In this document: piece after piece, positions 22,879 through 43,698 of the stretch
How the letters are laid out: each line of letters begins with the position of its first letter
Position numbering within the stretch: position 1 is the first letter of the stretch
From: Elusimicrobia bacterium HGW-Elusimicrobia-3
GTDB lineage: Bacteria > Elusimicrobiota > Elusimicrobia > Elusimicrobiales > UBA9959
DNA length: 43,698 bases
Assembly (NCBI GenBank): GCA_002840355.1
Contig: PHAL01000016.1
Coordinates: forward strand, 1-43,698
Reading direction: 5' to 3'
Notes under the pieces: model-generated
Database searches by the model: none
Seen by the model: only the letters and a program-made list of their open reading frames with translations
What the model was told of the DNA's origin: nothing
Position numbers and translations under genes: made by a program

Positions 22879-25800
22879 ATGATATTGAAAAGAATTTTAC
22901 TGCTACCGCTTCTGCTCTTAGCCGGCAACCTTGCCGGTCAGACCGTCTACACCGAGAACACCGAAGGCCAGTTCAACGCCGGCTCCCATAATTCCACCTA
23001 CGTCACCGGCGACGCCGTGGCGCTGGACCATTATGGCCGCGCCGCCGGGCTGGACGCGCCGGGCGGCGACGAGTGGTTCAACGGCAGTTGGAATTACCGG
23101 CGCCAGCTGACGGTCGATTCGGCCAACCCCGCCGGGCTGGCCGGCTACGCCGTCGCCGTTACGGTCAACACCCAGGCCGCCATAGCAGCCGGCAGGATGA
23201 AAGCCGACGGCTCGGACATACGCTTCACCACCGCCGCCGTCGCCGGGTACTCGCCGTCGCTGCCGTACTACATAGAGTCGGGGCTCAACACCGCCTCGAC
23301 CAAGATCTGGGTAAAACACCCCTTGGTCTCCCCCGGCTCCAACCCGCTGTACCTCTACTCCGGCAACGCGGCCGCGGCCGCGGCCTCTTCGCTGCCCGGC
23401 ACCTTCGTCATGGGCGACAATTTCGACGCCGCCAACGGCTCGGCCCCCAGCGGCGCCAACTGGGTGACCATAGAATCCGGCGCGCCGGCGGCCGGCTCCC
23501 TGCGCGACATACAGGCCAACCGCCTGCGCATGCTCTTCGGCAGCCCGCTGGGCACGCGCTACTACGGCCTGCGCAGCGCCAACCAGTACTCCTTCGCCGC
23601 CGGCCGCCGCTACCGCGCCGAGATCAACGCCCGCGCCTCAGGCGACTCCTGGTCCAGCTTCACCCTCTGCCAGGCCGTCTATACCTACGCCTACGACCAG
23701 GACGACTGGCTGCGCGTCGCCGTGCACCATACCGCCTCCGGCCCGTCCTACTCCATAGAGCGCAGCGACTACGGCACCAAGACCACGCTGGCCACCGGCG
23801 CGCTGGCCGCCGGCCTGCACGCCGTGGATTTCCTCATCACCGCCTCCTCGTTCAGCGTGCTGCTCGACGGCTCCGAGGTCTACTCCGCCGCCAACACGCT
23901 GCCGTTCAACAGCCCTTACCTGTACCTGGAGGCCTCCTCAGCCGGAGCCGCGCTGGAGGAATTCGTTTTCGACAACGTGACAGCGCAGCCCTACTCCTAC
24001 CCCGAGCCGGCCTTCGGCTCTGCCGGCACCGAGCAGGGCCGCCGCTACGCCGCCGGCAGCTTTCTGTCCCAGACCTACGACAGCGGCGCCGCCGGCTCGC
24101 TCTACTCGCGCGCCGACTGGGACGACGCGGTGCCGGCGGGTTCTTCCGTAACTCTGCAGGCCCGCGCGCACGACACCGACGTGGCGCTGGGCACCTTCAC
24201 CGCGGTGGCCAAGGGGGGCAACCCCGCCGTCTACGGCCGCTACGCGCAGTACCGCCTGCTTTTCTCCACTCTGGACCCGCGCTACACGGCCGCCGTAAGC
24301 AGCGTCACGCTGGGCTACGGTTCGCCGCCGCTGGCGCCGGCGGCTCCGGCCGGCCTCTCCCAGTCCGAGAGTTCCATCCGCTGGAGCTGGACCGACAACT
24401 CCTCCGGCCAGTACCAGGAGGAGGGCTTCAAGATCTTCGACGCCAGCGGCGTACTGAAAGGCTCCGCGGGCCCCAACTCGAGCGAGTGGACGGAGAGCGG
24501 CCTGAACCCCAACACCCTCTACGAGCGCGCCCTGGCCGGCTACAACCAGGCCGGCACCGGCCCCTCCGCGCCGGTCTCGCGTTACACGCTGTCCGTGGCG
24601 CCCAACGTCGGCTGCGACAGGTCCACCGGCACCTGGCTGTCGGGCGCGCTGACCTGCAACAATTTGGCCGGCTTCGGCACCAACGGCGTGGCCTATTACC
24701 GCTACGCCTGGACGCAGCAGCCGACCTACACCTGGGGCGGCAGCGAGACGCAGTGGACCTCGGGCTCGATGTCGAAATCGGACTTCTCCACCGGCAACTA
24801 TTACCTGCACGTAAAGTCCTATAACGGCAACGATGTATCCCTGTCCGGCTACCAGACCTACGGCCCTTACTGGTACGACAGGAACGTCCCCACCGTAACC
24901 GGCTTCAGCCCTTCCTCCAGCCCGTGGACCAACACCGGCCTCGGCTCGCAGGGCTCGTACTCCGACACCGGCGGCTCCAAACTGAACCGCGTCCGCTACC
25001 GCTGGACCACTTCGGCCGACCGGCCGGCCACCGGCTGGCAGGCCTGGGACAGCGCCATAGCGGGCAATGATACAGCCTCCTCCGGCTTCATCATAGGCAG
25101 CCCCGGCCAGTGGTACCTGCACGTTGAAGTAGAGGACACGGCCGGCAATGTGGGCTACGGCTATACCGGCGTTTTCAGGATAGACACGACCAAGCCCACC
25201 GGCGGCATAGCGATAAACGGGGGCGCGGAATATACGCCCTCGCGCAATGTCACGCTGGGCCTGACCTACGCCGACAGCGAGTCCGGAGTCAAGAATCTGG
25301 CCTACAGGAACCTGGGCGGCACCGAGAGCCAGCCGGAACTGCCGCAGGCCACCACGGCCTGGGTCCTGGCCCCCGGCGACGGCAGCAAGCAGGTCTATGT
25401 AAAGGTCACCGACAACGCGGGCAATTTACAGCAGTACGCCGACACCATCACGCTGGATTCGCGCACCTCGCTGCTGGGATCGGGCATCAACGGTACGGCC
25501 AGCGGCGTGATGGGGGAACCGGCGGATTCTTTCCTGGCCCGCGCCGCCATCTCCTGGACGCCCGACGGCTCCCCGCTGGATGGCAGGACTATATCTTTCC
25601 ACTTCAACGGTTCCACGAAAACGGCCCTCACCGACTCGCTCGGCTCCGCGACAACAGGCTTCTATGTCCCGGCGGCCACCGGCACCTATGTCTACAATGT
25701 CTGGTTCGAGACTGACGGGACCTACGCCGCCTCCGCCTCCACCGGCACGCTGCTGGCCTCGCAGCGCACGACCTCGCTGGTAACGGAAGACGTCAACGCC

Positions 25801-28800
25801 ACCTCTGGGGCAGCCTTTACAGCCAAGGCGACGCTTAAGGACTTTAATACTGAATTACCTATAAACGGGCGGACGATCTCGTTCTATTTCGAAGGCTCCA
25901 CCATAACGGCCGTGACCAACGCCCTGGGCGTGGCCACGGTAACATTCACCGCCCCGCTGACCGTAGCCTTCTACGACTACAACGCTACCTTCGACGGGGG
26001 TTCTGTCTACGGCCCCAAGACAGCCACCAGCCGCGTAGGCGTGGGCCTGCGCGTGACCAGCCTGGCGGTGCCGCCCGTGACGGCCCTGGCCCAGGCGACT
26101 TTCAACGCCCAGGCCACGCTGATAGACGGAACGAGCACGGTGGCGGGCGCGGCCATCAACTTCTACTTCCTTGGCTCCACCCAGACGGCAGTTACGGACG
26201 GTTCCGGAGTAGCCACATACGCCTTCACCGCGCCGGCTTCTTCCGGCACCTACTCTTTCGCGGCCGCTTTCGACGGAGACGGGACCTACGCGGCCTCCTC
26301 GGGCGGCGCGCTGCTTACGGTCAACCGCCGCCCGCTGAGCCTGGCCGGCGAGATGGGCCAGGGCTACGTCAACGCCTCTTTCCAGGCCCGGGCCGTGCTC
26401 TATGACGGCATCACGGCGCAGCGCGTGCCCGGCAAGGCCATAGTTTTCATCTTTGAGAGTTCCTCGGCCACGGTAGTCACCGACGCCCTGGGCGTCTCCA
26501 CTGCCGTTTTCGCCTCCGGCGCCCTGCCGCGCAGCGCCACCTGCTACTACTATTTCGCCGGCGACTCCGGCTACGCTTTCGCCGATTCCACCGCGCCGGT
26601 CACCGTTGAACGCCGGCCCGTGGCGCTGTCGGCCTCGGACACCTCGGCGCTGATCAGTTCCAGCTTTACCGCCGTGGCCGAACTCAAGGACACCGCTTTC
26701 ACCCCGGTGCCGGTAGCCGGCAAGACAGTGACCTTCACCTTCCTGGGCGAGCAGAAGACCGCCGTCACCGACGCTCTGGGTGTGGCTTCGGCCACCTACG
26801 CCAGCGGCCTGTCCACCGGCACCTACGAGTATTACGCCTCTTTCGCGCAGGACGGCTCCTACCTGGCCGACAACGACACCGGCACCGTCACCATGGACAA
26901 GCGCCCTGTGGTGGTCTCGGCCTACCCGCGCTTCGTCTTCGCCTTCGACGCCATACAGGGCGTGGCCGACCTCAAGGACGGTGTCACCGGCGAATACATC
27001 AGCAGCCAGACCATCTCCTTCAACTATAACGGCGTCTCCCAGTCCACCACCACCGGCAGCGAGGGCGCCGCCCTGGGCCGCGCCTACGCCGTCTATCCCG
27101 GCACCGGCGTGGCGGCCACCTACAGCTACAGCGCCACCTTCCCCGGCAACTCGCTTTATTCGGCCAACAGCAGTACCGCCTCCGTCACGGTAACCAAGCG
27201 CTCGGTCAACCTGACGGCCTTCCCGCAGAGCGCCATCTGGGGCAGCTCGTTCACGGCCACGGCCGAGTTCCGCGACGGCGCCACCAACACGCTGGTGGGG
27301 GGCAAGCAGCTGCGCCTGGCCTTCAGCACGGCCCCGGCCTCCTTCCAGCTCACCAGCGCGGCCGGCGTGGCCGCCTCCACCTTCACCGCCCCGGCCAGCA
27401 CCGGCGCCTTCAGCTGGTTCGCCAATTTCTCCGGAGACGACGCCTACGCGGCGGCCGCCTCCACCGGCACCATCTCCGTCAACCGGCGCGCGCCCACAAT
27501 CACGCCCATCGCCTCCAGCAAGTATGTCTGGGACTCTATCTACCTGAGCGCGACCTTTACGGACGAGGGCAATCCCGTAGCCGACCGGCTGCTCTATTTC
27601 TATTTCAACGGCTCCACTAAGACCGCCGCCACCAACTCCGGCGGCGTCGCTACCACGCTGGCCTTCTCCTCGGTCAGCGCGCAGGGCGTCTACGGCTTCT
27701 CTGTGCAGTTCGACGGCGACACCAACTATTCGGCCCAGACCGGCAGTTCCACGGTCACGGTCTCGCGCCGGCCCTCCAACCTGAACCTGGGCCCGGTCTC
27801 GGCGATCGCCAACTCCTCCGTCACCCTGTCGGCCACCCTGCTGGACACCAACTGGACCACACCGGTCTCCGGCAAGAGCGTCAGTTTCACGTTGCAGGGC
27901 GCCACCCACACGCTTTCAGCCGTCACCAACGCCTCCGGCATAGCCAGCGTGATATATTCCGCCGCCGGCGTTACCGGCCCCTACATCTATTCGGCCTCGT
28001 TCGCCGGCAACACCAGCTACACCGGCACCTCCAGCAGCGAGACGCTCACCGTCACGCGGCGCCCGTCGGTGCTGGAAATGGCCGACTACTACCCGCCGGC
28101 CAGCAGCACGTTCACTGTCTCCGCCGTGCTCAAGGATTTCACCAACGGCAACGCGATAGAGGCCAAGACGGTCTCCTTCCTGTTCCTCGGCTCCACCAGG
28201 ACCGCCGTCACCACCGCGCTGGGCTACGCGGCCACCTCCTACGTGGCGCTGTCGAGCACCATGAGCTATCCCATACAGGCCGCCTACGCCGGCGACACCC
28301 TCTACGCCCCCGCGACCATAGTCAAGACGGTGTTCCCCGGCCGGCGCAACACGGCCCTGCAGACCTCGGACATCCTGACTGCCGTGGCCAAGGACACGTT
28401 CACCGTCACCGCCAGGCTCAGCGACTACGACCTGGGCACCTATCTCTCCGGGGCGACCATCACCTTCTCTTTTACCGGCTCCACCTACTCGCTGACGGCG
28501 GTCACGGACCCCACAGGCTATGCCAGCGTACAGTTCGCGGCGCCCTCGGCCACCGACACCTACTCCTACACCGCCACGTACGCCGGCAGCGCGCTCTACA
28601 ACAGCACCCTGGAAACTTCCTCGGTGCTGGTCAACCGCCGCGCCATAACCATCAATCCAGCCGACCTGACCGGCGTGCCGGCCATCAGCACCTTTACCGC
28701 CTCGGCCACGCTCTCGGACGGCCCGCTGACCCTCTCCGACAAGACGCTGAGCTTCGTGTTCGTCTCCACCAAGAGCGCCATCACCGGCGTTACCGGCGTA

Positions 28801-31800
28801 GCTGTCTCCTCGTTCATAGCGCCGGTCAGCACCGGCACTTTCTCCTATAAGGTCACTTACGCCGGAGACGCGCTCTACGACCCCGCCACGGCCTACGCCA
28901 CCCTGGGCGTGGTGCTCAAGCCCACCGTGCTGGAGGTGCTGGACGTGCCCGACGCCGTGGTAGGCCTGAAGTTCACCGCCACCGCCAAACTGCGCGACAT
29001 CGAGGCCGGCAACGCGCTGGTGCTGTCCACCAAGACCATCACCATCGTCTTCGGCACCACCACAATAAACGCCGTGACGGACCTCGGCGTGGCCACGGCG
29101 GCCTATACCGCGCCGCTGACCACCGGCACCTACTCCTACACCGCCGCCTTCCCGGGCGACGGCATCTACGGCGCCAGCACCAGCAGCGGCACCGTGACGG
29201 TCAACCGCCGGCCCGTGCTGTTCAGCCTGGCCACGGACCCCAATCAACCCTACGCTTTCCGCGCCAACTCGGTGCAGTCCAGCTTCACCGTCACGGGCGT
29301 GCTTTCAGACGGCCAGGTGGCCGGCCTGAACCTGGCCGGGCAGAGCCTGACCTTCGTCTTCCAGAACTCCACCCAGACGGTCGTCACCAACGAGCTGGGC
29401 GTAGCCAGCGCCACGTTCGCCTCGCCCGTTTCCTCAGGCACCTACGCTTACTACGGTTATTTCTACGGCGACAACAGTTACAACCCCAACCGGCCGGAAG
29501 ATTCGGGAAAGACGCTCAACATCATCCCGCGGCCCACCAACATCCTGCCGCGGGACAGCGCCACCGGCATACTCAACAACGACGGCCTGACCCCGTACTA
29601 CACTTTCTGGAACACCCACGTGCAGGCGCGCGTGATGGACACGCTCAGCAGCGAGGGCATACAGGGCGTGACGGCCAACTTCGTGTTGTGGAACTCCACC
29701 AGGACGGGCGTCACCAACTCCATCGGCACGGCCCAGTCCAGCGCCACCTTCCCGGGCGTAACCGTGACCGGGATATATCCGGCGATAGTCAGGTTCGACG
29801 GCAACGGCACCTACGCTCCCAGCCTGCTGCCGGGGGGAACTCTCACTTCCGACCCCTATACCGCCAAAGTGACCATAAACCGCAGCCCGGCCTATTTCGA
29901 CGTTCCGCAGGTGACCGAGACTTACCCCGACGCCGACACCGTGATCGCCGGCAACCTGGTGGACTGGTGGGGCAGGCCGCCCGCCTACCCCGGCCAGTAC
30001 GTGGAGAATCCCAACGCCGCGCTGATCGGTTATCCTATCCGGTACAGGGTCTCTACGATCCCCTGCGGCGCCGACTGCGGCGCGGTCGGGCGCAACTGGG
30101 CCATAACCGGCTGGGGCACGGTAGGCGCAGGCAATATAGCCACGGCTACCGTGCGCTCCCCGCTGGCCGCCGGAGACTACCCGATAGATTATTATTTCGC
30201 CGCTACTCCCTCGTACGTGCAGTGGGGCCGCAGCGAGCCGCAGCGCGTGCTGCGCGTGGGCCGGCGCCTTACCTATATAATACCGGACTCGGAACCTTTC
30301 ACCGTGGGCGCCCAGATGCCGATAGATATCACCGTAAAGCTGGCCGACCTCACGCAGAGCCTGGCCGGAGTGAACGGCAAGGACCTCGACGTCATCCTGG
30401 TCACGACGCAAACCCTGGTCACCGGCTCCGCGGGTCCGGCCGGCAAAGTAAAAGCCACTTTCGCCGGCATGTCGGTGGGCACCTACACTTACATAGCCCG
30501 CTTCCCGGACGGCGACCCCGCCTACATGCCCTTCACCAGCAGCGGCACCGTGATAGTGGAGAAGAATACCACCGGCCTGGCGGCCGACAATGTCAGCAAT
30601 ATCCCCGCCGGCAACAATTTCGACGCCAGGGCCACGCTGACCATTATCCAGGGCACCACCACGCTGCCGCTGGCCGGCAAGACCATTAACTTCGTCTTCA
30701 CCAGCACCAACGGCCCGGTGAACCTGAGCGCCATGACCAACGCGCTGGGCGTGGCCACCGCGACCTACTCTTCCCCTTATGTCCCGGCCAACTATAACTA
30801 CACGGCGGAGTTCCCCGAAGACGCGGACAATAAACCCTCCAGCGACCTGACCAACACCGTGCAGGTGGTCAAGCGGCGCACCCAGGTGGTGGCCGAGAAC
30901 GCCGCGGTGTATATACAGGAGAATTTCACCTCCACCGCCACCCTGACCGACCTGGACCTGGGAGGGGCGCCGATACCGGGCATGACGGTCAGCTATGTCC
31001 TGCATAAGTCCCCGGACATCTCGGCAACCGCGGCCACCGACGCCGGCGGCGTGGCCGTCACGAGCTTCCTGTCCCCGACCACGGCGAACACGTACCAGTA
31101 CTCCGCCACCTTCCCCGGCACCTCCATCTACGCCGTCTCCAGCGACACCAGGACGGTGACGGTCTCCAGGCGCGTCACCAACCTCAACGCGGCCGACGTT
31201 ACCACGCCCACCAACAGCTCTTTCACCATCACCACCTCGCTCTCCGACGTCACGCACGACCTGGGCGTCTCCACCCCGATAGCCGGCGCGCAGGTGAAGT
31301 TCGTCTTCAACGGCGAAACCAAGTACGCCGTCACGGACGCCTACGGCGTGGTCTCGGCCACCTTCACCGCGCCCGCGGTAGCGGCCAATTACCCTTACAC
31401 GGTCTATTTCGAGGGCGACCAGACCTTCAACGTCACCGACACGCCCCGCACCGTCATAGTGCGCAAGCGCAACACCACGGTGTCGGGCACCGACGTAATA
31501 GCCCCGGCCGGCAGCGCCTTCACCGCCCAGGCCCTGCTCATAGACGAGTTCGGCCAGAAACTGGAGAACTACACCATCACCTTCGTCTTCACCGGCACCG
31601 GCACTTTCACCGGCGCCGACCTGACGGACGAGAACGGCCTGGCCAACAAGATCTATATCTCGCCGCTCAGCACCGGCACTTATAATTACACCGCTTCTTT
31701 CGCCGGCGACGACACCTACGCCGCCAATTCCGACGACCTCAACGAGGTGCTGGTCAACGTGGCCTCCACCACGCTCAGCGTGCCGGACGGCGCCGTCACC

Positions 31801-34800: not shown

Positions 34801-37800
34801 GGCGTGGCTTATTCCACCTACGCCGCCGATGTCGCCGCCGGCACCTACCAGCTGCCGGTGGCCTTCGCCGGCGACGCCCTCTACGACTCCACCTCCACCA
34901 ATATCCCGGTGCTGGTCAACAAGCGCGTCCCGCTGCTGGCCGTCAGCCCGGCCGCGGCCAGGGCGCTGGACGTCTTCACGGCCTCGGCCACCCTGGCCGA
35001 CAACCTGTACCCGGCACAGAAACTGGCCGGGCAGACCGTCGCCTTCGAATTCGTGGCGGGCACCAGCACCTACCTGGGCAACGGCGTCACCGACGCCCAG
35101 GGCCTGGCCGTTTATAACTTTACCGCCCCGGCCGCCACCGGCGCCTACCAGCTGAGGGGGAACTTCGCCGGCGATTCCACCTACTACCCCTCGCTCAAGA
35201 CCAGTACGGTAACCGTCTCCGCCCGCCCGGCCCTGCTGTCCCTGGCCGACGCGGAGACCGAGATAGACGAGCTGTTCCGGACCACCGCCACGCTCACCGA
35301 CCAGGCCACCCTGCTGCCCGTGGCCTCGCGCCTGGTCACCTTCACCTTCGTCACGAGTTCCGGGGCCTACACCGCCGCCGACGGTGAGGCCTCCGTGCGC
35401 TACACCGCGCCCGCTTCTTCGGGCGCTTACCGGTTGGACGCCGCTTTCGACGGCGACGCCACTTACGGCGCGGTTGCCTCCTCGGCCACGCTGACCGTCA
35501 AGCGGCGCCCGCTGGCGCTGGCGGCCCCGGACATCGCCGGCATCATCGACGAGGTGTTCAAGGCCACCGTCACGGTGACGGACGTGCTCAGCGCCGCCGC
35601 GGTAGTCGGCCGCCCCGTCAATTTCGTCTTCGATAACAGCACGTTCACCGTCCCGACCGCCGCCGGCGGCGTGGCCGTGTCCACCTTCGCCGCGCCCGCC
35701 GCCACCGGCGTCTACTACGCGGCCATCAATTTCCCCGGCGACGCGCGCTACCTGCCGGCCGCCACCACGGCCCAGCTCACCGTGGACCGGCGCCCCGCCG
35801 CCATAGACGCCGAGCCCGTGACCGCGCGGGCCGCCCAGGTCTTCACCGCCACCGCCGCGCTGCGCGACGTGCTGACCCCCGGCTACAAGCCCGCCGGGCG
35901 CGCCCTGGTATTCCACTTCGAGGGCAGCAGCTTTACCGCCATAACCGACGCCCAGGGCCTGGCCGTCTCCACGTTCATGGCGCCCTCCTCCAGCGGCGCC
36001 GTGCGCCTGGACATCTCTTTCGCCGGCGACGCCCGCTACACCCTGGCGGCCTCCACGGCCGCGGTCACCGTGCTGCGGCGCCTCTCCCTGCTGACCCTGG
36101 AGCCCATCGCGGTCAACGCCCTGGACGTCTTCACGGCCACCGCCACGCTGACCGACAAGGTGGACACGGGCGCCTACGCCCCCGGCCGCGACGTGATCTT
36201 CCACTTCGCCGGCACCAGCGTGACCGCCGTCACCGACGCCGGCGGCATAGCGGCGGCGTCCTTCACCGCCCCGCTCTCCTCGGGCGCCTACCAGGTAGAG
36301 GCCACTTTCGAGGGCGATTCCGTCTACGACACCAGCTATTCCAGCGGCGCCGTGGACGTGCTGCAGCGCCCCGTGGCCATCGCCATAGCCGACAGTTCGG
36401 CTTACCCCTTCGAACAGCTCACGGCCACCGCCACCCTCACCGACGGCGCCACGGCCGCGCCGGTGGAAAGCCGCCTGCTGCTGTTCACGCTTGACGGGAC
36501 GCAGCTGGCCGGGACCACGGACGGCGTAGGTGTGGCCACCGCGGCCTATACGCCCCCGGGCACCTTCGGCTATTACGAACTGGGCGCGGAATTCGCCGGC
36601 GACGCCACCTACGCGGCCTGGACGGCCAGCGGCACGGTAGAGGTGATGCGGCGGCCCACCGCCGTGGCCCCGCTCGACGCGGCCGCCACCGCCATGGACG
36701 TGTTCATAGCCAGCGCCTCCCTCTCCGACGTGCGGTTCGGCGCCCCGGTGGAGGGGAAAGAGCTGGTCTTCCTGTTCGAGGGCCAGACCAGCACCGCCGC
36801 AACAGACGCGCAGGGCCTGGCCTGGACCCAGTTCGCCGCGCCGATCTCCTCCGGCACCTACTTCTTTACCGCCGAATTCCACGGCGACCCGGTCTACGCT
36901 GTCTCGTCGGCCACCGGCGCCGTGGCCGTCAGCACCCGCTTCACCAGGACCATAGCGCGCGACACCAACGCCAACGTGGGCGAGCCCTTCGTCCTCTCGG
37001 CCACGCTCACCGACCCGGCCAGGGAAGGCCAGGAGGGCTATTTCGTCCCCAACACGCTGATGAAGTTCATCTTCAAGGACCGGGACAACTTCACCATCGA
37101 GGAAGGCTCCGCCACCACCAACGAGATCGGCGTGGCCACGGTCACGTTCAGCGGCCCCGGCGCCCCCGACGTCTATTATTACACGGCTTTCTTCGAGGGC
37201 GACTATTCCTACACGCCCAGCAGCGCCACCGCCATGGTCAAGGTGGGCCTGCTGACGTCGCTGGTGGCCAACGACGTGGAAACCGAGGCGCTCGAGAGCT
37301 TCAAGGTCAAGGCCAAGCTGACCGACTACCTCTCCACCACGCTCGACGACAAGGCCGTGCGCTTCACGTTCCTCGGCTTCAGCGGCGCCGGCATGACCAA
37401 CGCCGAGGGCGACTCCGGCGTGGCCGCCTCCACCTTCACGGCGCCGCCCTCCTCCGGCACCTACCTCTATAACGCTTACTTCGACGGCGACTCCATCTAT
37501 TCCGCCAGCAACGCCACCGGCACCATCACCGTCAAGCTGCGCACGGCTTCCATCGTCACGTTCCCGACCAGCGCCATGTCCTACAGTTCCTTTACGGCGC
37601 TGATCGCCCTGAAGGACCTCAAGACCAACGGTTCCATAGGCGGCCGCGACGTGGAGATCTACTTCAACGGCAGCACCGTCGCGGCCAATACCGACGCCGA
37701 CACCGGCGTGGCCGGCGCCTCCTTCTTCGCGCCTTTCTCCTCCGGCACCTACAACTACTACGCCGCGTTCGCCGGCGACGACACCTACGCGCCCTCGGTA

Positions 37801-40800
37801 GGCACCGGCACGCTCACCGTGGCGCTGCGGCCCACCAACATGCTGTCCTACAACGTCACGGACCTCACCTCCAACAGCACGTTCACGGCCCGCGTGCAGA
37901 TCAAGGACAACGCCAACCTGCCCATAGAGGGGCTCAGCGTCGACTTCAATTTCGAGGGCCAGTTCTCCGTCGGCGCTACCGACGCCCAGGGCCTGGCCGA
38001 AGTGGTGCTGACCGCGCCGGCCTCCAGCGGCACGTACACCTATTCCGCGGTCTTCTACGGGGACGACCGCTACGCCGCCAGCAACGCCGACGGCACCGTG
38101 GCCGTCGGCCCCAGGCCCACGCTGATGGTCACCTCCTCGGTCTCGTCCAAGCTGGGCTCGCCGCTGGAACTCTCGGCCCGCCTGGTGGACACCGCCACGC
38201 AGGCCGGCATCTCCGGCAAGCAGCTGAACTTCTACTTCGCCGGGGCCACGCTGACCGCGGCCACCGACGGCTTCGGCATCTCCAGCGCGGCGTTCGCCTC
38301 GCCGGCCTCCACCGGCGCCTACTACTACGAGGCCGAGTACGCCGGCGACGGCCTGACCTACCTGGGCAGCTACTCCTCCTCGCCGGTCACCATAGCGCTC
38401 AACTTCACGCAGCTCGAGGCGGCGGAGAACCTTTCCATAAAGATCTACGAGCCCCTGCAGGTGCAGGCCACGCTGCGTGACTCCATAGGCGTGCAGATGC
38501 CGGGTCTGCCGGTGACCTTCGCCTTCGAGGGCGCCGAGGCCGAGGACTACACGGACGAGTTCGGCCGCTCCACCGCCTCGTTCCCCACGCTGCTGCTGGC
38601 CTCCACCGGCACCTACAACTACACGGCCGAGTTCGCGGGCGACACGCTCTACGTGGCCTCCAGCGACACCGCCAACGTGGTCAACGTGGGCCGGCGCGAC
38701 TCGCTGCTGACGGCGGGCAGCCTGATGACCACGCCCAACAAGCCGTTCGCGGCCGCGGCCCTGCTCTCCGACAACGTCAACGACAGCGTCTTCAACGGCG
38801 CGCCGGTCTCCGGCAGGACTATCCTGTTCGAGTTCTTCGATTCCACCTACACGCAGGTCTCCTCCGCGGCCACCTCGGCGCTGGGCGTCTCCAGCGTGAG
38901 CTTCACCGCCCCGGCCTCAACCGGCACCTTCCTGCTGACCGCCCGCTTCGCCGACGACGACCCGATCTACGCCGGCGCCTTCTCCTCGGCCGCGGTAGTG
39001 GTGATGCTAGACGACGGCACCGGGGCCATCAAGACCAAGCTGACGGTCGCGCACGCCCGGGCCTACCTGGGCCGAGTCTTCACGGCTTCCGGCACGCTGA
39101 CCGCCACCGACGAGCCGGTGCCGGGCAAGGCGGTGCTCTTCGAGTTCTTCAACGGCGTGGCCACCTACACGGCGGCCGGCTACACGGACGGCATAGGCCT
39201 GGCCACCGCCGCCTTCACGGCCCCGTCCTCCTCCGGCACCTATAACCTTACCGCCTCTTTCGCGGGCGACGCGCAGTTCTCGGCCGCCATGGGCACGGCT
39301 ACGCTGACCGCCGAGCGCTACCCGGTGTCGCTCGTGGCGCAGGACGTCTCGGCCTACGCCGGCGAGGTCTTCAGGGCCAGGGCGGTGCTGCGCGACGACC
39401 TCACGCAGGACTACGTAGCCGCGAAGACGGTCACCTTCAGCTTCTTCGACGGGGTCTCCACGCTGACCGCGACCGCCCTGACCAGCTCCACCGGTTCCGC
39501 GGAGGTGGAATTCACGGCGCCCGCCGTGCCGGGCGACTACTTCTACACCGCCAGCTTCGAGGGCGATACCGTCTACCTGGGCGCCGCCGACACGGCCTCG
39601 CTGCTGATAGCCTCGCGCGGCTCGAGCACCTTCCTGGTGGGCTACGACGTCGGCTACGAGGTCTCCGTCGGTACCGGCGAGGTGGTGGCCGCCTCGGCCA
39701 CGCTGACCTCCAAGGGCTACCCGGTGCCCGGCAAGCCCGTCACCATCACTTTCCAGGGCGTGGCCCGCGTCTCCACTACCAACGCGCAGGGCCTGGCTTT
39801 CTCTACCTTCACGACCCTGTCCTCCAGCGGCACCTTCGTCTACCAGGCGGACTTCACGGGCGACGCCAACTATAACGCCGCCGTCACCACCGCCGCCGTG
39901 CTGGTCGTGTACAGGAAGCAGCCCGAACCGCCTGCGTTCAAGGCCGAGGTCACCTCCACCACCGTCACGCTGGCCTGGACCCAGGTGACGCAGTACCAGG
40001 ACGAGGTGAAGGAGTACATCATAGAGCAGGCGCTCTCGCTGCGCGGCAACGCCAGCACCTCCACCGCCGTGGCCGCCAGCAGCACCGCCTTCACCTGCGA
40101 CGTGGACGAGGACGAGTCCACGTTCATCAAGATCAAGACCAAGCTCAACGACGAGCAGGTCAGCGCCACCACGCTGATAGTAGAAGTGCCCAGCAAAGCG
40201 GCCGACCCTCTCCGCGTGCCCAACTACTACTACATGAGCCCCGGAGAGAACCCCCAGGACTGGGCCGCGTGGGTAAAGATCCCCGGCAAGGTCATGGACA
40301 AGGTCTCGGCCAACAACGCTTTCGACATCACCGTGGAAAAGGAATCCAACCCCGACTTCCTGGCGTCCTACAATATCAAGTCGGCCGGCGTGCCGGCCGC
40401 AGACCTGGAAAAGGACCTGCGGGCCTCGGACAGGAAAGGCGTAAAGCTGACGATAGCCTACCCGCAGGGCGGAACCGGCACCTCGGCCGCTGCCGGCCAG
40501 GTGGCTATCTACTGGTTCAACGGCGCGGAATGGGTGAAGCTCGGCGGCGAGATAGACGTGCTGACCGGCGAGATCTACACCTACTCCCGCGTGCTGGGCC
40601 AGTTCGCGGTGCGCGCGGCCACGCTGTCCTCCAAGTTCACGCTCAACAAGGTGGCGCCGCGCATCTTCAGCCCCGACGACCCCAGCGCCGTAGTCAACCG
40701 CGCCCGGTTCTACTTCGAGAACCCCGGCGGCGGCGAGGTCACTATCCGGATCTTCGACGTCACCGGCGCGCTGGTGCGCCGCAACCTGGAGTCGGAGGGC

Positions 40801-40923
40801 GCCAATATAATGTTCTGGAACGGCCGCGACCAGGCGGGAACGCTGGTTAAGGGCGGCATATACCTCTACCAGGTCGAGGCCGGGGAGGATGTTGTCACCG
40901 GCACCGTGGTGGTGGCGAAATGA
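22879..40923 (+). CDS. Giant secreted Ig-repeat protein (6014 aa) with FlgD/T9SS-like C-terminal domain
   Basis: A 6014-aa surface or secreted protein, probably an adhesin or extended stalk. A signal peptide (about 1-20, ending NLAGQ) is followed by a DUF2341-like domain (about 66-160, WFNGSWNYRRQL), a lectin/LamG-like region (about 175-375), an Fn3-like domain (about 484-571) and three further beta domains to about 860. About 49 Ig-like repeats of about 98 residues follow (862-5679). A second Fn3-like domain covers about 5681-5775, then comes a beta domain containing IYWFNGAEWVKLGG. The last 97 residues (5918-6014) resemble FlgD-Ig/T9SS-type tails (FSPDDPS, FDVTGALVRR, WNGRDQAG, GGIYLYQVEAG). 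Cysteines are very few. The frame is open throughout and the repeats are diverged, so a merging error is unlikely. The next gene overlaps by ATGA. Confidence 0.93.
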   Translation: MILKRILLLPLLLLAGNLAGQTVYTENTEGQFNAGSHNSTYVTGDAVALDHYGRAAGLDAPGGDEWFNGSWNYRRQLTVDSANPAGLAGYAVAVTVNTQAAIAAGRMKADGSDIRFTTAAVAGYSPSLPYYIESGLNTASTKIWVKHPLVSPGSNPLYLYSGNAAAAAASSLPGTFVMGDNFDAANGSAPSGANWVTIESGAPAAGSLRDIQANRLRMLFGSPLGTRYYGLRSANQYSFAAGRRYRAEINARASGDSWSSFTLCQAVYTYAYDQDDWLRVAVHHTASGPSYSIERSDYGTKTTLATGALAAGLHAVDFLITASSFSVLLDGSEVYSAANTLPFNSPYLYLEASSAGAALEEFVFDNVTAQPYSYPEPAFGSAGTEQGRRYAAGSFLSQTYDSGAAGSLYSRADWDDAVPAGSSVTLQARAHDTDVALGTFTAVAKGGNPAVYGRYAQYRLLFSTLDPRYTAAVSSVTLGYGSPPLAPAAPAGLSQSESSIRWSWTDNSSGQYQEEGFKIFDASGVLKGSAGPNSSEWTESGLNPNTLYERALAGYNQAGTGPSAPVSRYTLSVAPNVGCDRSTGTWLSGALTCNNLAGFGTNGVAYYRYAWTQQPTYTWGGSETQWTSGSMSKSDFSTGNYYLHVKSYNGNDVSLSGYQTYGPYWYDRNVPTVTGFSPSSSPWTNTGLGSQGSYSDTGGSKLNRVRYRWTTSADRPATGWQAWDSAIAGNDTASSGFIIGSPGQWYLHVEVEDTAGNVGYGYTGVFRIDTTKPTGGIAINGGAEYTPSRNVTLGLTYADSESGVKNLAYRNLGGTESQPELPQATTAWVLAPGDGSKQVYVKVTDNAGNLQQYADTITLDSRTSLLGSGINGTASGVMGEPADSFLARAAISWTPDGSPLDGRTISFHFNGSTKTALTDSLGSATTGFYVPAATGTYVYNVWFETDGTYAASASTGTLLASQRTTSLVTEDVNATSGAAFTAKATLKDFNTELPINGRTISFYFEGSTITAVTNALGVATVTFTAPLTVAFYDYNATFDGGSVYGPKTATSRVGVGLRVTSLAVPPVTALAQATFNAQATLIDGTSTVAGAAINFYFLGSTQTAVTDGSGVATYAFTAPASSGTYSFAAAFDGDGTYAASSGGALLTVNRRPLSLAGEMGQGYVNASFQARAVLYDGITAQRVPGKAIVFIFESSSATVVTDALGVSTAVFASGALPRSATCYYYFAGDSGYAFADSTAPVTVERRPVALSASDTSALISSSFTAVAELKDTAFTPVPVAGKTVTFTFLGEQKTAVTDALGVASATYASGLSTGTYEYYASFAQDGSYLADNDTGTVTMDKRPVVVSAYPRFVFAFDAIQGVADLKDGVTGEYISSQTISFNYNGVSQSTTTGSEGAALGRAYAVYPGTGVAATYSYSATFPGNSLYSANSSTASVTVTKRSVNLTAFPQSAIWGSSFTATAEFRDGATNTLVGGKQLRLAFSTAPASFQLTSAAGVAASTFTAPASTGAFSWFANFSGDDAYAAAASTGTISVNRRAPTITPIASSKYVWDSIYLSATFTDEGNPVADRLLYFYFNGSTKTAATNSGGVATTLAFSSVSAQGVYGFSVQFDGDTNYSAQTGSSTVTVSRRPSNLNLGPVSAIANSSVTLSATLLDTNWTTPVSGKSVSFTLQGATHTLSAVTNASGIASVIYSAAGVTGPYIYSASFAGNTSYTGTSSSETLTVTRRPSVLEMADYYPPASSTFTVSAVLKDFTNGNAIEAKTVSFLFLGSTRTAVTTALGYAATSYVALSSTMSYPIQAAYAGDTLYAPATIVKTVFPGRRNTALQTSDILTAVAKDTFTVTARLSDYDLGTYLSGATITFSFTGSTYSLTAVTDPTGYASVQFAAPSATDTYSYTATYAGSALYNSTLETSSVLVNRRAITINPADLTGVPAISTFTASATLSDGPLTLSDKTLSFVFVSTKSAITGVTGVAVSSFIAPVSTGTFSYKVTYAGDALYDPATAYATLGVVLKPTVLEVLDVPDAVVGLKFTATAKLRDIEAGNALVLSTKTITIVFGTTTINAVTDLGVATAAYTAPLTTGTYSYTAAFPGDGIYGASTSSGTVTVNRRPVLFSLATDPNQPYAFRANSVQSSFTVTGVLSDGQVAGLNLAGQSLTFVFQNSTQTVVTNELGVASATFASPVSSGTYAYYGYFYGDNSYNPNRPEDSGKTLNIIPRPTNILPRDSATGILNNDGLTPYYTFWNTHVQARVMDTLSSEGIQGVTANFVLWNSTRTGVTNSIGTAQSSATFPGVTVTGIYPAIVRFDGNGTYAPSLLPGGTLTSDPYTAKVTINRSPAYFDVPQVTETYPDADTVIAGNLVDWWGRPPAYPGQYVENPNAALIGYPIRYRVSTIPCGADCGAVGRNWAITGWGTVGAGNIATATVRSPLAAGDYPIDYYFAATPSYVQWGRSEPQRVLRVGRRLTYIIPDSEPFTVGAQMPIDITVKLADLTQSLAGVNGKDLDVILVTTQTLVTGSAGPAGKVKATFAGMSVGTYTYIARFPDGDPAYMPFTSSGTVIVEKNTTGLAADNVSNIPAGNNFDARATLTIIQGTTTLPLAGKTINFVFTSTNGPVNLSAMTNALGVATATYSSPYVPANYNYTAEFPEDADNKPSSDLTNTVQVVKRRTQVVAENAAVYIQENFTSTATLTDLDLGGAPIPGMTVSYVLHKSPDISATAATDAGGVAVTSFLSPTTANTYQYSATFPGTSIYAVSSDTRTVTVSRRVTNLNAADVTTPTNSSFTITTSLSDVTHDLGVSTPIAGAQVKFVFNGETKYAVTDAYGVVSATFTAPAVAANYPYTVYFEGDQTFNVTDTPRTVIVRKRNTTVSGTDVIAPAGSAFTAQALLIDEFGQKLENYTITFVFTGTGTFTGADLTDENGLANKIYISPLSTGTYNYTASFAGDDTYAANSDDLNEVLVNVASTTLSVPDGAVTVNMLYTATATLKGAASGAGVPNKPVDFTFNGVNLGQVLTDETGMAVKTFTPASTGTFRLDADFYGDSAFFASESSATITVSRRTAGIAAPDVQTEVEMVFIATATLRDYSAVPSTPIEGRTVEFLFDGNTKTAVTNSVGVATVSYTSPLFSGVYALGANFPGDAIFEATATLAVVNIAKHEISLAVVNGSIPALEVFNATATLTMGVTPIPGKNIQFLYKGEPLSATTDAAGQAFVQYQSGASSGPWRLDANFDGSADPTYASTSTYGTITVLRRAAVVVPENITLSVFDAFTATATFRDVVSSNTPAGKYAKVAFNWIKTTTFTATATDGSGLLYVSTGAPVSSGTYKVEAFYLGDATYAPSLASTATVTVLRRPSQLALADVSVMFGRVFTATATLRNEAVPLASKPVTFTFEGRPFTKLTNASGIAVATFTVTLSTGPSRIDALFDGDAAYGPSNVATATVTAAMRPTAVTPAAAAAIADKVFIATATLKDIDNLNLAGKEVDFIFEGETLTGITNALGVATAAFTADVATGTYAVGVYFNGTYAYIPSSSTLTLTVQRRPTSILPPGGVTTRALDVFYATATLRDLDAITLGAKPVRFLFQGATFYRATDGGGVSISTWAAPASSGSYIVGAYFDGDEKYAPSSSSILVANLQRPAGIALNGVTATALDLFKATATLTDLNNGLLQVSTRNVTFSFSWGANTSALTNGVGVATASYNATAAAGAYQLTGSFAGDATYASTSAVVPLLVTKRNAYVTGVYVSTRVFDVFTATGTFYDSVSSAPVAGRTMKFILQHGSTRTAVTGGDGVAAANFTAHGSSGTYAIYTMFEGDATYNPAVTYVSSVTLARRDSRITLTAPPSVIINSAFTASGTIYDSVNSAPAPSKLLSFLFQGSTVPAFADGAGQASAGYTASLSSGAYELQVSFAGDASYNPSVSTRTVTSLRYPTRINGPAVTVTMNEVLTATATLTDYLASTVPAKALTFTFQSQPFVDVTDGLGVAYSTYAADVAAGTYQLPVAFAGDALYDSTSTNIPVLVNKRVPLLAVSPAAARALDVFTASATLADNLYPAQKLAGQTVAFEFVAGTSTYLGNGVTDAQGLAVYNFTAPAATGAYQLRGNFAGDSTYYPSLKTSTVTVSARPALLSLADAETEIDELFRTTATLTDQATLLPVASRLVTFTFVTSSGAYTAADGEASVRYTAPASSGAYRLDAAFDGDATYGAVASSATLTVKRRPLALAAPDIAGIIDEVFKATVTVTDVLSAAAVVGRPVNFVFDNSTFTVPTAAGGVAVSTFAAPAATGVYYAAINFPGDARYLPAATTAQLTVDRRPAAIDAEPVTARAAQVFTATAALRDVLTPGYKPAGRALVFHFEGSSFTAITDAQGLAVSTFMAPSSSGAVRLDISFAGDARYTLAASTAAVTVLRRLSLLTLEPIAVNALDVFTATATLTDKVDTGAYAPGRDVIFHFAGTSVTAVTDAGGIAAASFTAPLSSGAYQVEATFEGDSVYDTSYSSGAVDVLQRPVAIAIADSSAYPFEQLTATATLTDGATAAPVESRLLLFTLDGTQLAGTTDGVGVATAAYTPPGTFGYYELGAEFAGDATYAAWTASGTVEVMRRPTAVAPLDAAATAMDVFIASASLSDVRFGAPVEGKELVFLFEGQTSTAATDAQGLAWTQFAAPISSGTYFFTAEFHGDPVYAVSSATGAVAVSTRFTRTIARDTNANVGEPFVLSATLTDPAREGQEGYFVPNTLMKFIFKDRDNFTIEEGSATTNEIGVATVTFSGPGAPDVYYYTAFFEGDYSYTPSSATAMVKVGLLTSLVANDVETEALESFKVKAKLTDYLSTTLDDKAVRFTFLGFSGAGMTNAEGDSGVAASTFTAPPSSGTYLYNAYFDGDSIYSASNATGTITVKLRTASIVTFPTSAMSYSSFTALIALKDLKTNGSIGGRDVEIYFNGSTVAANTDADTGVAGASFFAPFSSGTYNYYAAFAGDDTYAPSVGTGTLTVALRPTNMLSYNVTDLTSNSTFTARVQIKDNANLPIEGLSVDFNFEGQFSVGATDAQGLAEVVLTAPASSGTYTYSAVFYGDDRYAASNADGTVAVGPRPTLMVTSSVSSKLGSPLELSARLVDTATQAGISGKQLNFYFAGATLTAATDGFGISSAAFASPASTGAYYYEAEYAGDGLTYLGSYSSSPVTIALNFTQLEAAENLSIKIYEPLQVQATLRDSIGVQMPGLPVTFAFEGAEAEDYTDEFGRSTASFPTLLLASTGTYNYTAEFAGDTLYVASSDTANVVNVGRRDSLLTAGSLMTTPNKPFAAAALLSDNVNDSVFNGAPVSGRTILFEFFDSTYTQVSSAATSALGVSSVSFTAPASTGTFLLTARFADDDPIYAGAFSSAAVVVMLDDGTGAIKTKLTVAHARAYLGRVFTASGTLTATDEPVPGKAVLFEFFNGVATYTAAGYTDGIGLATAAFTAPSSSGTYNLTASFAGDAQFSAAMGTATLTAERYPVSLVAQDVSAYAGEVFRARAVLRDDLTQDYVAAKTVTFSFFDGVSTLTATALTSSTGSAEVEFTAPAVPGDYFYTASFEGDTVYLGAADTASLLIASRGSSTFLVGYDVGYEVSVGTGEVVAASATLTSKGYPVPGKPVTITFQGVARVSTTNAQGLAFSTFTTLSSSGTFVYQADFTGDANYNAAVTTAAVLVVYRKQPEPPAFKAEVTSTTVTLAWTQVTQYQDEVKEYIIEQALSLRGNASTSTAVAASSTAFTCDVDEDESTFIKIKTKLNDEQVSATTLIVEVPSKAADPLRVPNYYYMSPGENPQDWAAWVKIPGKVMDKVSANNAFDITVEKESNPDFLASYNIKSAGVPAADLEKDLRASDRKGVKLTIAYPQGGTGTSAAAGQVAIYWFNGAEWVKLGGEIDVLTGEIYTYSRVLGQFAVRAATLSSKFTLNKVAPRIFSPDDPSAVVNRARFYFENPGGGEVTIRIFDVTGALVRRNLESEGANIMFWNGRDQAGTLVKGGIYLYQVEAGEDVVTGTVVVAK
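25462..39915 (+). repeat. Array of about 49 Ig-like protein repeats (unit about 294 bp)
   Basis: My manual parse gives about 49 units, each with the pattern FTATATLxD, GKxVxFxF, AVTDAxGVAxAxFTAP, SSGTYxYxAxFxGDxxYxxS, and a linker ending in RRP or similar. The pattern fits bacterial Ig-like group 3 (Big_3_5-like) domains. Units differ at many positions, so this is an old, diversified array. Unit 16 (about 29881-30262) is unusual, with a long insertion and two closely spaced cysteines. Confidence 0.85.
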
Positions 40924-41297
40924 CGCTCGCCCTTGATAAAAAATTTATGAGCAACCTCTTCAACGCACTGCTTCTTTCCACCCTGCTGGCGGCGCCCGCC
41001 GCGGCGGCGTTTACGCTGACAAAGGTCACGCCCCGCGTCTTCAGCCCCGGGGAGGGGAACCCGGTAGTCAACCGCGCGCGGTTCCATTTCACCAATCCCG
41101 ACGCCGGGGAGATCACGATACGCATCTTCGACATCAAGGGCTCGCTGGTGCGCAGGAACCTGGACTCAGAATCCCCGCTCGTGATGTACTGGAACGGCAG
41201 GGACCAGGGCGGCTCCATGGTCAGGGGGGGTATCTACATTTACCAGATAGAGGTCGGTGAGCAGGTCATAACCGGCACCGTGGTGGTGGCAAAATGA
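40920..41297 (+). CDS. Small secreted protein made of one FlgD/T9SS-like domain, paralogue of the giant protein's tail
   Basis: A 125-aa exported protein. A signal peptide (about 1-30, with KK near the N-terminus and cleavage after APAAAA) is followed directly by a domain of about 97 residues. That domain is identical at about 64 positions to the last 97 residues of the giant protein, by manual count. Shared motifs include KVxPRxFSP, VVNRARF, LVRRNL, WNGRDQ and the terminal GTVVVAK. Its ATG overlaps the giant gene's stop (ATGA). An alternative ATG at 40947 is possible but would lose the basic n-region. It may be a soluble or cell-bound competitor, cap or adaptor for the same sorting or anchoring partner; this role is inference. 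Confidence 0.88.
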   Translation: MTLALDKKFMSNLFNALLLSTLLAAPAAAAFTLTKVTPRVFSPGEGNPVVNRARFHFTNPDAGEITIRIFDIKGSLVRRNLDSESPLVMYWNGRDQGGSMVRGGIYIYQIEVGEQVITGTVVVAK

Positions 41298-42967
41298 AAC
41301 GGCTACCTTATATGAAGACAACGACACTCCTTTCCCTGCTGGGCCTTGCCGTACTGGCGGCGGCGCCGGCCCGCGCCGCCTTCGAGGACGTCGAGACCGG
41401 CCCCAGGGCTTCGGCCATGGCCGGCGCCTACGCCGCCCAGTCCGAGGGCATCTCCTCTATTTTCTACAACCCCGCCGGCATCATCGGCGCCACCCGCTAC
41501 GAGGCGGCGCTGGCCCAGCAGAAGCTCTATCTCGGCCTGACCGACGGCAGCGCCATCTCGCGCGGCGCCATAGCCTTCGGCCTGCCGCTCTCCTTCGGCG
41601 GCTCCTACTGGGGCACCGCGGCCGTGGGCATGGACACGCTCAGCCTCGACAGCCTCTACAGCGAATCCCGCCTGCGCATAGCCTGGGCCTACCCGCTCAA
41701 GGAGCGGCTGTGGGCCGGCCTCGCGCTGGCGCGCATGGGCGTAACCTACGGCAGCGACCCCCTTTACCCGGTCCTGGACGGCACCACCGAAATGTCCGCC
41801 ATGGGCCTCGACATCGGAGCCATATACAGCGGGGAAGGGGCTGACTTCGGCCTTTCGATACAGAACGCCAACGAGCCCGACCTGGGCATCAAGTACGCCA
41901 ACAAGGTGGACCGCAAGATAACCCTGGGCATGGCCCTCAAGCGCCAGACCTTCACCTGGAACTCCGACCTGTCGCTGTCCGGGCAGGACGTTAAGATCAA
42001 GACCGGCGCCGAGGTGCCGGTTATGCGGGAGGCCTACGGCGACCGGCTGCAGGCCCGCGGCGGTTTCAGCGTGGGCTCGCGCGACTACCGCTCGCTCGCC
42101 GCCGGCTTCGGCTACCGGCGCGCCTCCTACCGCGTGGATTATTCTTTCGTTTACCCGCTCAGCGGCCTGGCCGATACCATGGGCTCCCACCAGCTGGGAC
42201 TGTTCGTGGCGTGGGGCGAGCCCCGCGGCCCGCTGGCCGACAGGGAAAACCAGTATTCCGACGAGGCCGGGGAGAAAGGCCGCGGCGGCGGCGGAGGGGA
42301 CGGCGCCGGAGAAGGCGAGGGCGCGCCCCAAAAGACCGAGCCCAGCAAGCAGGACGTGCAGAAGGCCGTCAAGCTGCTGCGCCAGGCCAGGCTCAACCTG
42401 CGCTCCGGCGCCTACGCCAAGGCCGAGGAGGCCTTCAAAAAGGCCGACGAGCTGCTGATGAACACCGACCCGTCCATCAAGGAGACCATGCTGAAGATGG
42501 GCGCGGTGAGCGGCATCCTGCCCGAGGCCACCGGCCAGGCCGGCCGCGACGACCTGCTGCGCAAGTCCGTCAACCGCTACGCGGACAAGAACACCGACGC
42601 GGTGCTCTATATCACCTACGCCCGCCAGAGGTGGCCGAGGGACATAGCGGTCGCAAGGTTGTATAATCTCATCACCCGGGAATTCCCGGAGACGGCCTCG
42701 GGGCTGCGCATCCTGCCGGGCATCACGATCATAGACCAGCTGCTGCAGGACGCCCTGGACTTCATACGCAACGGCCGCTTCATACAGGCCATTTCCACCC
42801 TGCAGCGGGTGCTGCAGCTGGAGCCCGACAATATACCGGCCCTGACCCGCATGGGCTCGGCCTACTGGGCGATGGAAAAGAAGGATATCGCGAGGAGAAA
42901 CTGGCGGAGGGTGCTGGAACTTGATCCTGGTAATACGGAAGTTAACCAGTTCATGCGGATGAATTAA
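41294..42967 (+). CDS. PorV/PorQ-like outer-membrane barrel fused to TPR repeats
   Basis: A 557-aa exported protein. The signal peptide (about 1-28, cleavage after APARA) leads into a PorV/PorQ or UPF0164-like beta-barrel (about 29-310). The hallmark opening is present (GPRASAMAGAYAA, SEGISSIFYNPAGI). An acidic glycine-rich linker (about 322-345) joins a helical TPR region (about 348-557), with clear TPRs in LRSGAYAKAEEAFKKADELL and in the last 75 residues (ISTLQRVLQLEPDNIPALTRMGSAYWAMEK). PorV in Bacteroidota shuttles type IX cargo at the outer membrane. Here the barrel is translated in overlap (ATGA) with two genes carrying T9SS-like tails, so it is the likely export or anchoring partner. 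The start could instead be the internal Met at residue 7. Confidence 0.88.
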   Translation: MKRLPYMKTTTLLSLLGLAVLAAAPARAAFEDVETGPRASAMAGAYAAQSEGISSIFYNPAGIIGATRYEAALAQQKLYLGLTDGSAISRGAIAFGLPLSFGGSYWGTAAVGMDTLSLDSLYSESRLRIAWAYPLKERLWAGLALARMGVTYGSDPLYPVLDGTTEMSAMGLDIGAIYSGEGADFGLSIQNANEPDLGIKYANKVDRKITLGMALKRQTFTWNSDLSLSGQDVKIKTGAEVPVMREAYGDRLQARGGFSVGSRDYRSLAAGFGYRRASYRVDYSFVYPLSGLADTMGSHQLGLFVAWGEPRGPLADRENQYSDEAGEKGRGGGGGDGAGEGEGAPQKTEPSKQDVQKAVKLLRQARLNLRSGAYAKAEEAFKKADELLMNTDPSIKETMLKMGAVSGILPEATGQAGRDDLLRKSVNRYADKNTDAVLYITYARQRWPRDIAVARLYNLITREFPETASGLRILPGITIIDQLLQDALDFIRNGRFIQAISTLQRVLQLEPDNIPALTRMGSAYWAMEKKDIARRNWRRVLELDPGNTEVNQFMRMN

Positions 42968-42976
42968 AGGCGGGCA

Positions 42977-43013
42977 GCGCCGGAGTCCCTCAGGGCCGGC
43001 GCCCCGTTTTTTT
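42977..43013 (+). terminator. Intrinsic terminator of the giant-protein operon
   Basis: GCGCCGG (42977-42983) pairs with CCGGCGC (42996-43002). An inner CCC/GGG stem closes a TCA loop. Seven T residues follow at 43007-43013. It lies just after the barrel-TPR gene and before the ribosome site of the next gene. Confidence 0.8.
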
Positions 43014-43037: not shown

Positions 43038-43698
43038 ATGAAAAGCAAGAACCTCTTAATTTTCGCTCTGCTGGCCGCGGCCCTCCTGGCGCCGGCGGCG
43101 GCCCGTGCCCAGTCGCTGGAGGCGCTGCGCAGCAAGACGGCCCTGGAGGCGCAGATCGAGGAGCGGCTGAGATCCATGATCTCGTCCTATCTCAACACCA
43201 AGGAAGTCGCGGTGGCCGCCAAGGTCAACGTGCAGGTCAGCCGCAAGGCCGACGACCCCAAGAGCGGCGTGCGCAAGTGGGACGATAAGGATGAGCTGAT
43301 CCTACCCGGCGTGCCCGCGGCCACGTCCATGACCAAGGACGCCGGCGCGGCCAAGGCCGCCGAGGCCGCCAGGCGGCAGGTGCGCCTGGGCGTGGACAGC
43401 GTCAATATCTGGATCATCGTGGGCAAACCGGTGGCCAAGGACCAGGAAGCCAAGGTCAAGAAGCTGGTGAGCGACGCGCTGGGCCTGGACGCCGGCGTGG
43501 GCGACACCATTTCCGTGGAGAGCACGCTGCCCGAGAAACCTTCGCGCGCGCTGGATATCGGCGCCATCGTGGCGCTGGTCTGCCTGGCCGTGCTGGCCGC
43601 CTTCCTCTACGGCCCCTTCCGCGGCTTCCTGGCCCGCCTCAACGAGAATTTGGCCGCGCTGGCCGCGGCCAGGAAAGGCCCCGCCGAGCATAAGTCCG
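43038..43698 (+). CDS. Membrane protein with FliF/YscJ-like ring-building region (partial, runs off the window)
   Basis: The first 220 codons are visible, without a stop. A signal peptide (about 1-24, ending AARAQ) precedes an exported region that includes SSYLNTKEVAVAAKVNVQV. Residues 110-160 match the pattern just before the second membrane helix of FliF (VNIWIIVGKPVAKDQEAKVK, then LVSDALGLDAGVGDTISVES). A membrane helix follows at about 176-195, and then a basic cytoplasmic tail begins. This arrangement suggests a ring-forming inner-membrane protein of the FliF/YscJ kind, though no other flagellar gene is visible. AAGGAG lies 8 bases before the ATG. TATAATG at the start is probably chance. 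Confidence 0.85.
   Translation, partial: MKSKNLLIFALLAAALLAPAAARAQSLEALRSKTALEAQIEERLRSMISSYLNTKEVAVAAKVNVQVSRKADDPKSGVRKWDDKDELILPGVPAATSMTKDAGAAKAAEAARRQVRLGVDSVNIWIIVGKPVAKDQEAKVKKLVSDALGLDAGVGDTISVESTLPEKPSRALDIGAIVALVCLAVLAAFLYGPFRGFLARLNENLAALAAARKGPAEHKS

Follow-up and report, generated by a model that had tools for sequence, protein, structure and literature searches.

In the flagellar motor, MotAB stators turn rings of FliG. In myxobacteria, surface gliding without flagella is driven by the Agl-Glt system, whose AglRQS complex is an ion-driven motor of the MotA/TolQ type. PorV, an outer-membrane protein, is a 14-stranded barrel with its termini in the periplasm. In this study, a stretch of 43,698 nucleotides from Elusimicrobia bacterium HGW-Elusimicrobia-3 (contig PHAL01000016.1, positions 1 to 43,698; referred to below as the window) was analyzed, in which a PorV-type barrel gene lies beside the start of a flagellar-type rotor gene. 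The window carries overlapping genes for a giant secreted repeat protein, a small protein that is almost only a C-terminal domain (CTD), and a PorV-family barrel extended by tetratricopeptide repeats (TPR), followed by the 5′ part of a gene in which FliF and FliG are fused. With a probability of roughly 0.55, these genes belong to a flagellar-type rotor and stator operating without a flagellum and mechanically coupled, via the PorV-TPR barrel, to CTD adhesins exported by SprA. The window would accordingly cover the surface part of an envelope machine spread across the phylum, together with the first of its motor genes.

Like Agl-Glt, the proposed machine would use a MotA-type ion-driven motor for surface gliding without flagella; unlike it, Agl-Glt has no FliF/FliG rotor and no SprA, PorV, or CTD proteins. 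With the flagellar motor, the locus shares a FliF ring domain, the FliG middle and C-terminal domains, MotA, and a MotB with the ion-binding Asp and an OmpA domain. It differs from that motor in that FliF and FliG form one short fused protein, whose FliF portion keeps a single ring domain, the last one; neither FlhA nor FliM/FliN was found, and the linked genes encode outer-membrane PorV barrels along with CTD proteins. In Salmonella, a FliF-FliG fusion-deletion mutant still rotates, as cited in PMC9389320.

The gliding apparatus and type IX secretion system (T9SS) of Bacteroidota (SprB-SprF-SprA-GldKLMN) resembles the present system in three respects: the translocon is of the SprA type, CTD surface proteins have FadL-family barrels of their own as partners, and an ion-driven motor of the 5:2 type lies in the inner membrane. 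There, SprB binds its barrel SprF, and PorP-like barrels hold type B CTD proteins (PMC9143113). The barrels are PorP/SprF in Bacteroidota, whereas PorV-family barrels with TPR are found here, together with MotAB and a FliF-FliG rotor; GldL, GldM, and the PorU protease domain were not found in this genome (controls are given below). In Porphyromonas gingivalis, PG1035 is held by PorP together with the TPR protein PorE (PMC9143113). This is likewise a barrel-held CTD protein whose barrel is associated with a periplasmic TPR protein, but in the window barrel and TPR are fused, the barrel is of the PorV type, and its gene lies beside a rotor gene.

What is new is the combination: every part comes from a known family, yet the set lacks some of the tested features that define a flagellum. 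No system combining FliG with PorV was found in the literature searched, bioRxiv and many subscription journals lying outside that search. The chances appear about even that the set represents an undescribed class of envelope nanomachine, in which a minimal FliF-FliG and MotAB motor without the export apparatus drives PorV-TPR barrels and giant CTD adhesins.

The FliF-FliG fusion gene and its distribution

The fusion gene starts at position 43038 on the + strand, seventy bases past the barrel gene. Its 5′ part (43038-43697, 220 aa) encodes a signal peptide, the FliF_C ring domain, and a membrane helix, and ends at the contig end. The remainder was located on the minus strand at the end of another contig of the same genome (G000:C68; L055:8339-9118), followed by genes for MotA, MotB, MotB2, a response regulator, a CTD protein, PorV, and a TPR-LysM protein. 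In L033, a relative with 90% identity, the gene is uninterrupted and encodes 482 aa. In the intact orthologue of L035, a signal peptide is followed by the last FliF ring domain, then by a membrane helix (approximately residues 170-199), and finally by the middle and C-terminal domains of FliG.

One 481-aa protein carries both Pfam FliG_C (E value, 3.5e-10) and YscJ_FliF_C (1.3e-5). With a profile built without E. coli sequences, residues 24-225 of the fusion aligned with residues 241-514 of E. coli FliF (5e-12) and residues 257-463 with residues 111-322 of FliG (1e-23), in that order. In the PDB, the fusion profile matched FliG 1lkv (3.6e-48) and FliF 6scn (2e-7). The neighbouring MotA was matched at 1.1e-23, and the OmpA domains of the two MotB genes at 6e-14 and 8.5e-16. 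The first MotB (MotB1) retains the ion-binding Asp, and MotA the prolines of the channel.

These residues bear on the suggestion that the stator-rotor complex only anchors or senses, by tensioning or positioning the giant adhesin or by acting as a force sensor for nearby response regulators. Response regulator genes do occur near the motor genes (L035:15424-15804; window 22365-22727), and the charges used for torque are not conserved (see below). Since the ion-binding Asp and channel residues are kept in MotB1 and MotA, energy use is likely, and such a passive role is considered quite improbable.

The fusion was present in 122 of 295 genomes of the phylum, covering 60 of 90 genera. Five FliG_C (fusion) loci were found in this genome and none in four genomes of the sister family. 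Among 20 loci drawn from distant genomes, two of them from other classes, a PorV-TPR gene was directly upstream of the fusion and on the same strand in 18 (of the remaining two, one was divergent and one was at a contig end), and both MotA and MotB were nearby in 17. L165 and L166, from other classes, share the order of the window, i.e., CTD protein, CTD-only protein, PorV-TPR, and FliF-FliG. In the genus set, PorV was near the fusion in 32 of 37 stretches, a few loci being seen twice; four of the other five end at contig ends, and L097 is a genuine exception with a fusion and no nearby PorV. At the order level, PorV-TPR-type genes were detected in 27 of 28 fusion-positive versus 0 of 33 fusion-negative genomes (Fisher test, 2e-16, which is not a true probability because the genomes are related and kinship was not corrected for).

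Searches for FlhA (PF00771) in 13 genomes and for FliM/FliN (PF01052) in 9 genomes gave no match, and flagellated controls were matched in both. A flagellum as the identity of the system was rejected on the ground of these absences. Rod, hook, and filament genes were not seen in the neighbourhoods, no dedicated search for them being made. The lack of FlhA, FliM, and FliN would also fit remnants of a former flagellum that persist by drift, but this is very improbable given the spread of the fusion through two-thirds of the genera, its five copies in this genome, a linkage to PorV that is kept between classes, and invariant positions in the motor genes, which imply purifying selection. The architecture itself, comprising gene content, domain homology, conserved linkage, and the lack of FlhA and FliM/FliN, is very secure.

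Surface proteins and secretion components

The three surface genes lie on the + strand and are joined by two ATGA overlaps (40920-40923 and 41294-41297), as reported in the preliminary description of this DNA. The first gene (22879-40923) encodes a giant secreted surface protein of 6014 aa with a signal peptide, a DUF2341 domain, 49 Ig-like repeats (Big_3_5/Invasin_D3), and a CTD resembling sorting or anchoring domains (40657-40920, + strand). The repeats occupy residues 883-5667 (25525-39879, + strand) with a median period of 96 aa, as delimited by a local profile, Big_3_5 matching in three pieces. The second gene (40920-41297), which overlaps both neighbours, encodes the 125-aa CTD-only protein, consisting of a signal peptide and a CTD. 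The tails of the two proteins are 63% identical over 104 aa, in agreement with the two-thirds identity noted before. Their CTD-like character, also proposed previously, was borne out by a match of the CTD-only protein to NCBIfam TIGR04183 (T9SS type A sorting domain) with 25.1 bits, above the cut-off of 23; matches of both tails to Pfam FlgD_ig, CHU_C, and Por_Secre_tail were weak (2e-4 to 9e-4) and below the cut-offs.

The third gene (41294-42967) encodes a 557-aa protein with a PorV-family outer-membrane barrel at about residues 30-310 and a C-terminal TPR extension at about residues 350-555. The barrel matched NF033709 (PorV_fam) at 9e-11, under the curated cut-off. NF033709 matched all of the 17 barrels compared, and a profile from an alignment of 17 such barrels matched PorV of Flavobacterium johnsoniae (6h3i_F) at 3e-32. 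The extension matched Pfam TPR_2 at 5.9e-11, and both the PorV-like barrel and its TPR extension, as named in the preliminary description, are thus upheld. The AlphaFold model of the protein had a pLDDT (predicted local distance difference test score) of 53 and was confident in the TPR part only; TPR proteins were the sole Foldseek matches to the predicted structure. Because the termini of PorV are periplasmic, the TPR extension should be periplasmic as well.

The gene order is kept in seven other Elusimicrobiota contigs (L033-L039), in which the barrel gene is 64-91% identical, a CTD protein gene lies upstream of it, and the CTD-only gene stands between them in most. This conservation indicates that the arrangement is not due to chance, and the three genes do travel together in related genomes. 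The relatives include the Elusimicrobia metagenome-assembled genomes GWB2_63_16 and GWC2_64_44. Still larger CTD-tailed open frames, of 11,748 and 11,055 aa, were observed in relatives (G001:C102 and G003:C46).

A SprA homologue of 1776 aa, of the SprA/Sov type named as a search target in the preliminary description, was found at G000:C31 (TIGR04189, 8e-38, below the cut-off, with the pieces collinear). A 10-member SprA profile matched F. johnsoniae SprA (6h3i/6h3j) at 1.7e-18 in four collinear pieces; a PDB search with the lone sequence gave no match. SprA was also present in all four sister-family genomes, which have no fusion, and therefore is not dependent on this motor. Proteins matching the PorU model were numerous, but the matches were confined to its CTD part and never covered its protease part, with no positive control matched; a search of the genome for C25 proteases gave no match, with silent controls; and GldL and GldM gave no match in this genome, with no T9SS-bearing control genome over the cut-off. 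As no T9SS-bearing control was matched, the absences of C25, GldL, and GldM are weaker than the flagellar ones. A complete T9SS is thus not demonstrated; of the T9SS-like system proposed earlier, the PorV family, the CTD, and SprA stood, and searches for GldL, GldM, and the protease part of PorU gave nothing under these weak controls.

In the genome stretches read, which were sampled partly via CTD matches, a CTD protein adjoins 19 of 20 PorV genes, and a PorV barrel of its own seems to accompany each CTD protein. Dedicated CTD-PorV pairs are thus numerous; the window contains one of them, which is also among the five linked to motor genes. Pairs with no motor nearby were observed at G000 L041, L042, L044-L049, L051, L053, L054, L056, and L057. 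Long C-terminal extensions of TPR length were found in this genome in 4 of 5 motor-linked PorVs versus 0 of 13 others.

In the preliminary description, the locus was interpreted as a T9SS-like export or anchoring system specialised for one giant cargo, with the TPR region as a periplasmic or surface adaptor. The PorV family, the CTD, SprA, and the conserved three-gene order are consistent with this interpretation, but a single cargo is contradicted by the approximately 20 PorV genes, 19 of them with a CTD neighbour. It also leaves unexplained the FliF-FliG, MotA, and MotB genes next door in 18-19 of the 20 phylum loci, and GldL, GldM, and the protease domain of PorU were not found, subject to the controls mentioned. 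A dedicated one-cargo T9SS is therefore unlikely and was rejected as the main account, CTD-PorV pairs being many and motor linkage being the rule. The earlier interpretation is only partly supported, the linkage to FliF-FliG and MotA/MotB/MotB having been overlooked in it; the distinguishing feature is the flagellar-type motor, rather than an export or anchoring system alone.

Proposed machine and points against it

As to the export route, the TPR-rotor contact, rotation, and gliding or adhesin movement, we infer the following scheme. The CTD proteins, i.e., the 6014-aa Ig adhesin and the CTD-only protein, would leave through the single SprA-type translocon, and each would be held at the cell surface by a dedicated barrel of the PorV family. 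In the periplasm, the TPR extension of this barrel would contact a rotor built from a single fusion protein, with a periplasmic FliF ring domain, one membrane helix, and cytoplasmic FliG middle and C-terminal torque domains. MotA/MotB stators, presumably anchored to peptidoglycan through the OmpA domains of MotB, would use the ion gradient to rotate this rotor, which in turn would shift or spin the PorV-adhesin complex, with surface fibres gliding, spinning, or being put under tension as a result. Its mode of working would be akin to the SprB/SprF/GldLM gliding of Flavobacterium, with a flagellar motor in place.

Several observations weigh against this scheme. The E. coli torque charges (FliG R281, D288, D289, and R297; MotA R90 and E98) are not conserved, so that the rotor-stator interface has diverged. 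In most relatives, Gly replaces the ion-binding Asp of the type I MotB2 (L035:14747-15427; L055, minus strand); MotB2 of L036 has Asp at this position, and a mixed MotB pair in the stator is suggested. Among the genes, none was identified that would encode a rod-like part bridging the inner-membrane ring and the outer membrane. The AlphaFold models of FliF-FliG (pLDDT, 46) and PorV-TPR were too poor for contact tests. Finally, a GC hairpin followed by a T run lies on the + strand in the gap between the PorV-TPR and motor genes (42966-43013); its fold is strong, and it is absent from the listing of a consensus scan. Hairpins of differing sequence fill the same gap in six orthologous loci; the folds had z values of -1.8 to -3.9. 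The hairpin is possibly an attenuating terminator, and because it stands between the halves, the surface and motor genes may not share a transcript and may be separately controlled.

The main rival explanation is that MotAB and FliF-FliG power the export of the cognate CTD proteins by SprA, replacing GldL and GldM, with PorV-TPR as a collector and the adhesin left unmoved. This would agree with the failure to find GldL and GldM (with the weak controls described) and with motor genes adjoining those of the CTD proteins and PorV; moreover, GldLM of Flavobacterium powers both secretion and gliding, according to PMC8986121. It is less easily reconciled with a single SprA for five sets of motor genes, with the many CTD-PorV pairs in the genome that have no motor nearby (the majority), or with the sister family, in which SprA (4/4) operates without the fusion. 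In addition, a motor of the GldLM style needs no FliG rotor ring. Export powered in this way is thus a tentative alternative, not a probable one, and a motor acting on the PorV-held adhesins is preferred.

If a motor of this kind does move the adhesins, a FliG-MotAB rotary engine exists that is independent of the flagellum and coupled with surface proteins of a type IX-like kind, and flagellar secretion is dispensable for the working of the flagellar rotor and stator. This would bear on the origin of the flagellar motor, with motor and exporter as separable modules. It would also predict surface motility in Elusimicrobiota, a phylum regarded as non-flagellated, and give a purpose to some of its giant repeat proteins. 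Up to five gene sets per genome are available for testing.

Other features of the loci

An Rfam search of the window gave no matches. A minus-strand open reading frame of 2482 aa (29434-36882) lies entirely within the giant gene in antisense orientation and was taken as a by-product of the GC-rich repeats.

In type II loci, a conserved large protein (approximately 480-1240 aa) with a Pro-rich N-terminus (MADE..PPLPP) is encoded between FliF-FliG and MotA. It was observed at L050:2943-5372 (minus strand) and in the equivalent gap in L096, L099, L100, and L167-L183, with no Pfam match where checked. This protein is perhaps a cytoplasmic scaffold or localiser.

Just upstream of the giant gene, a cluster of signalling genes is present at window positions 17614-22727. 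It includes genes for a response regulator with an HD_5 domain (phosphodiesterase-like), an MFS transporter, an OmpR-type regulator, a HAMP histidine kinase, and a single-domain response regulator, and is a possible source of control of the locus.

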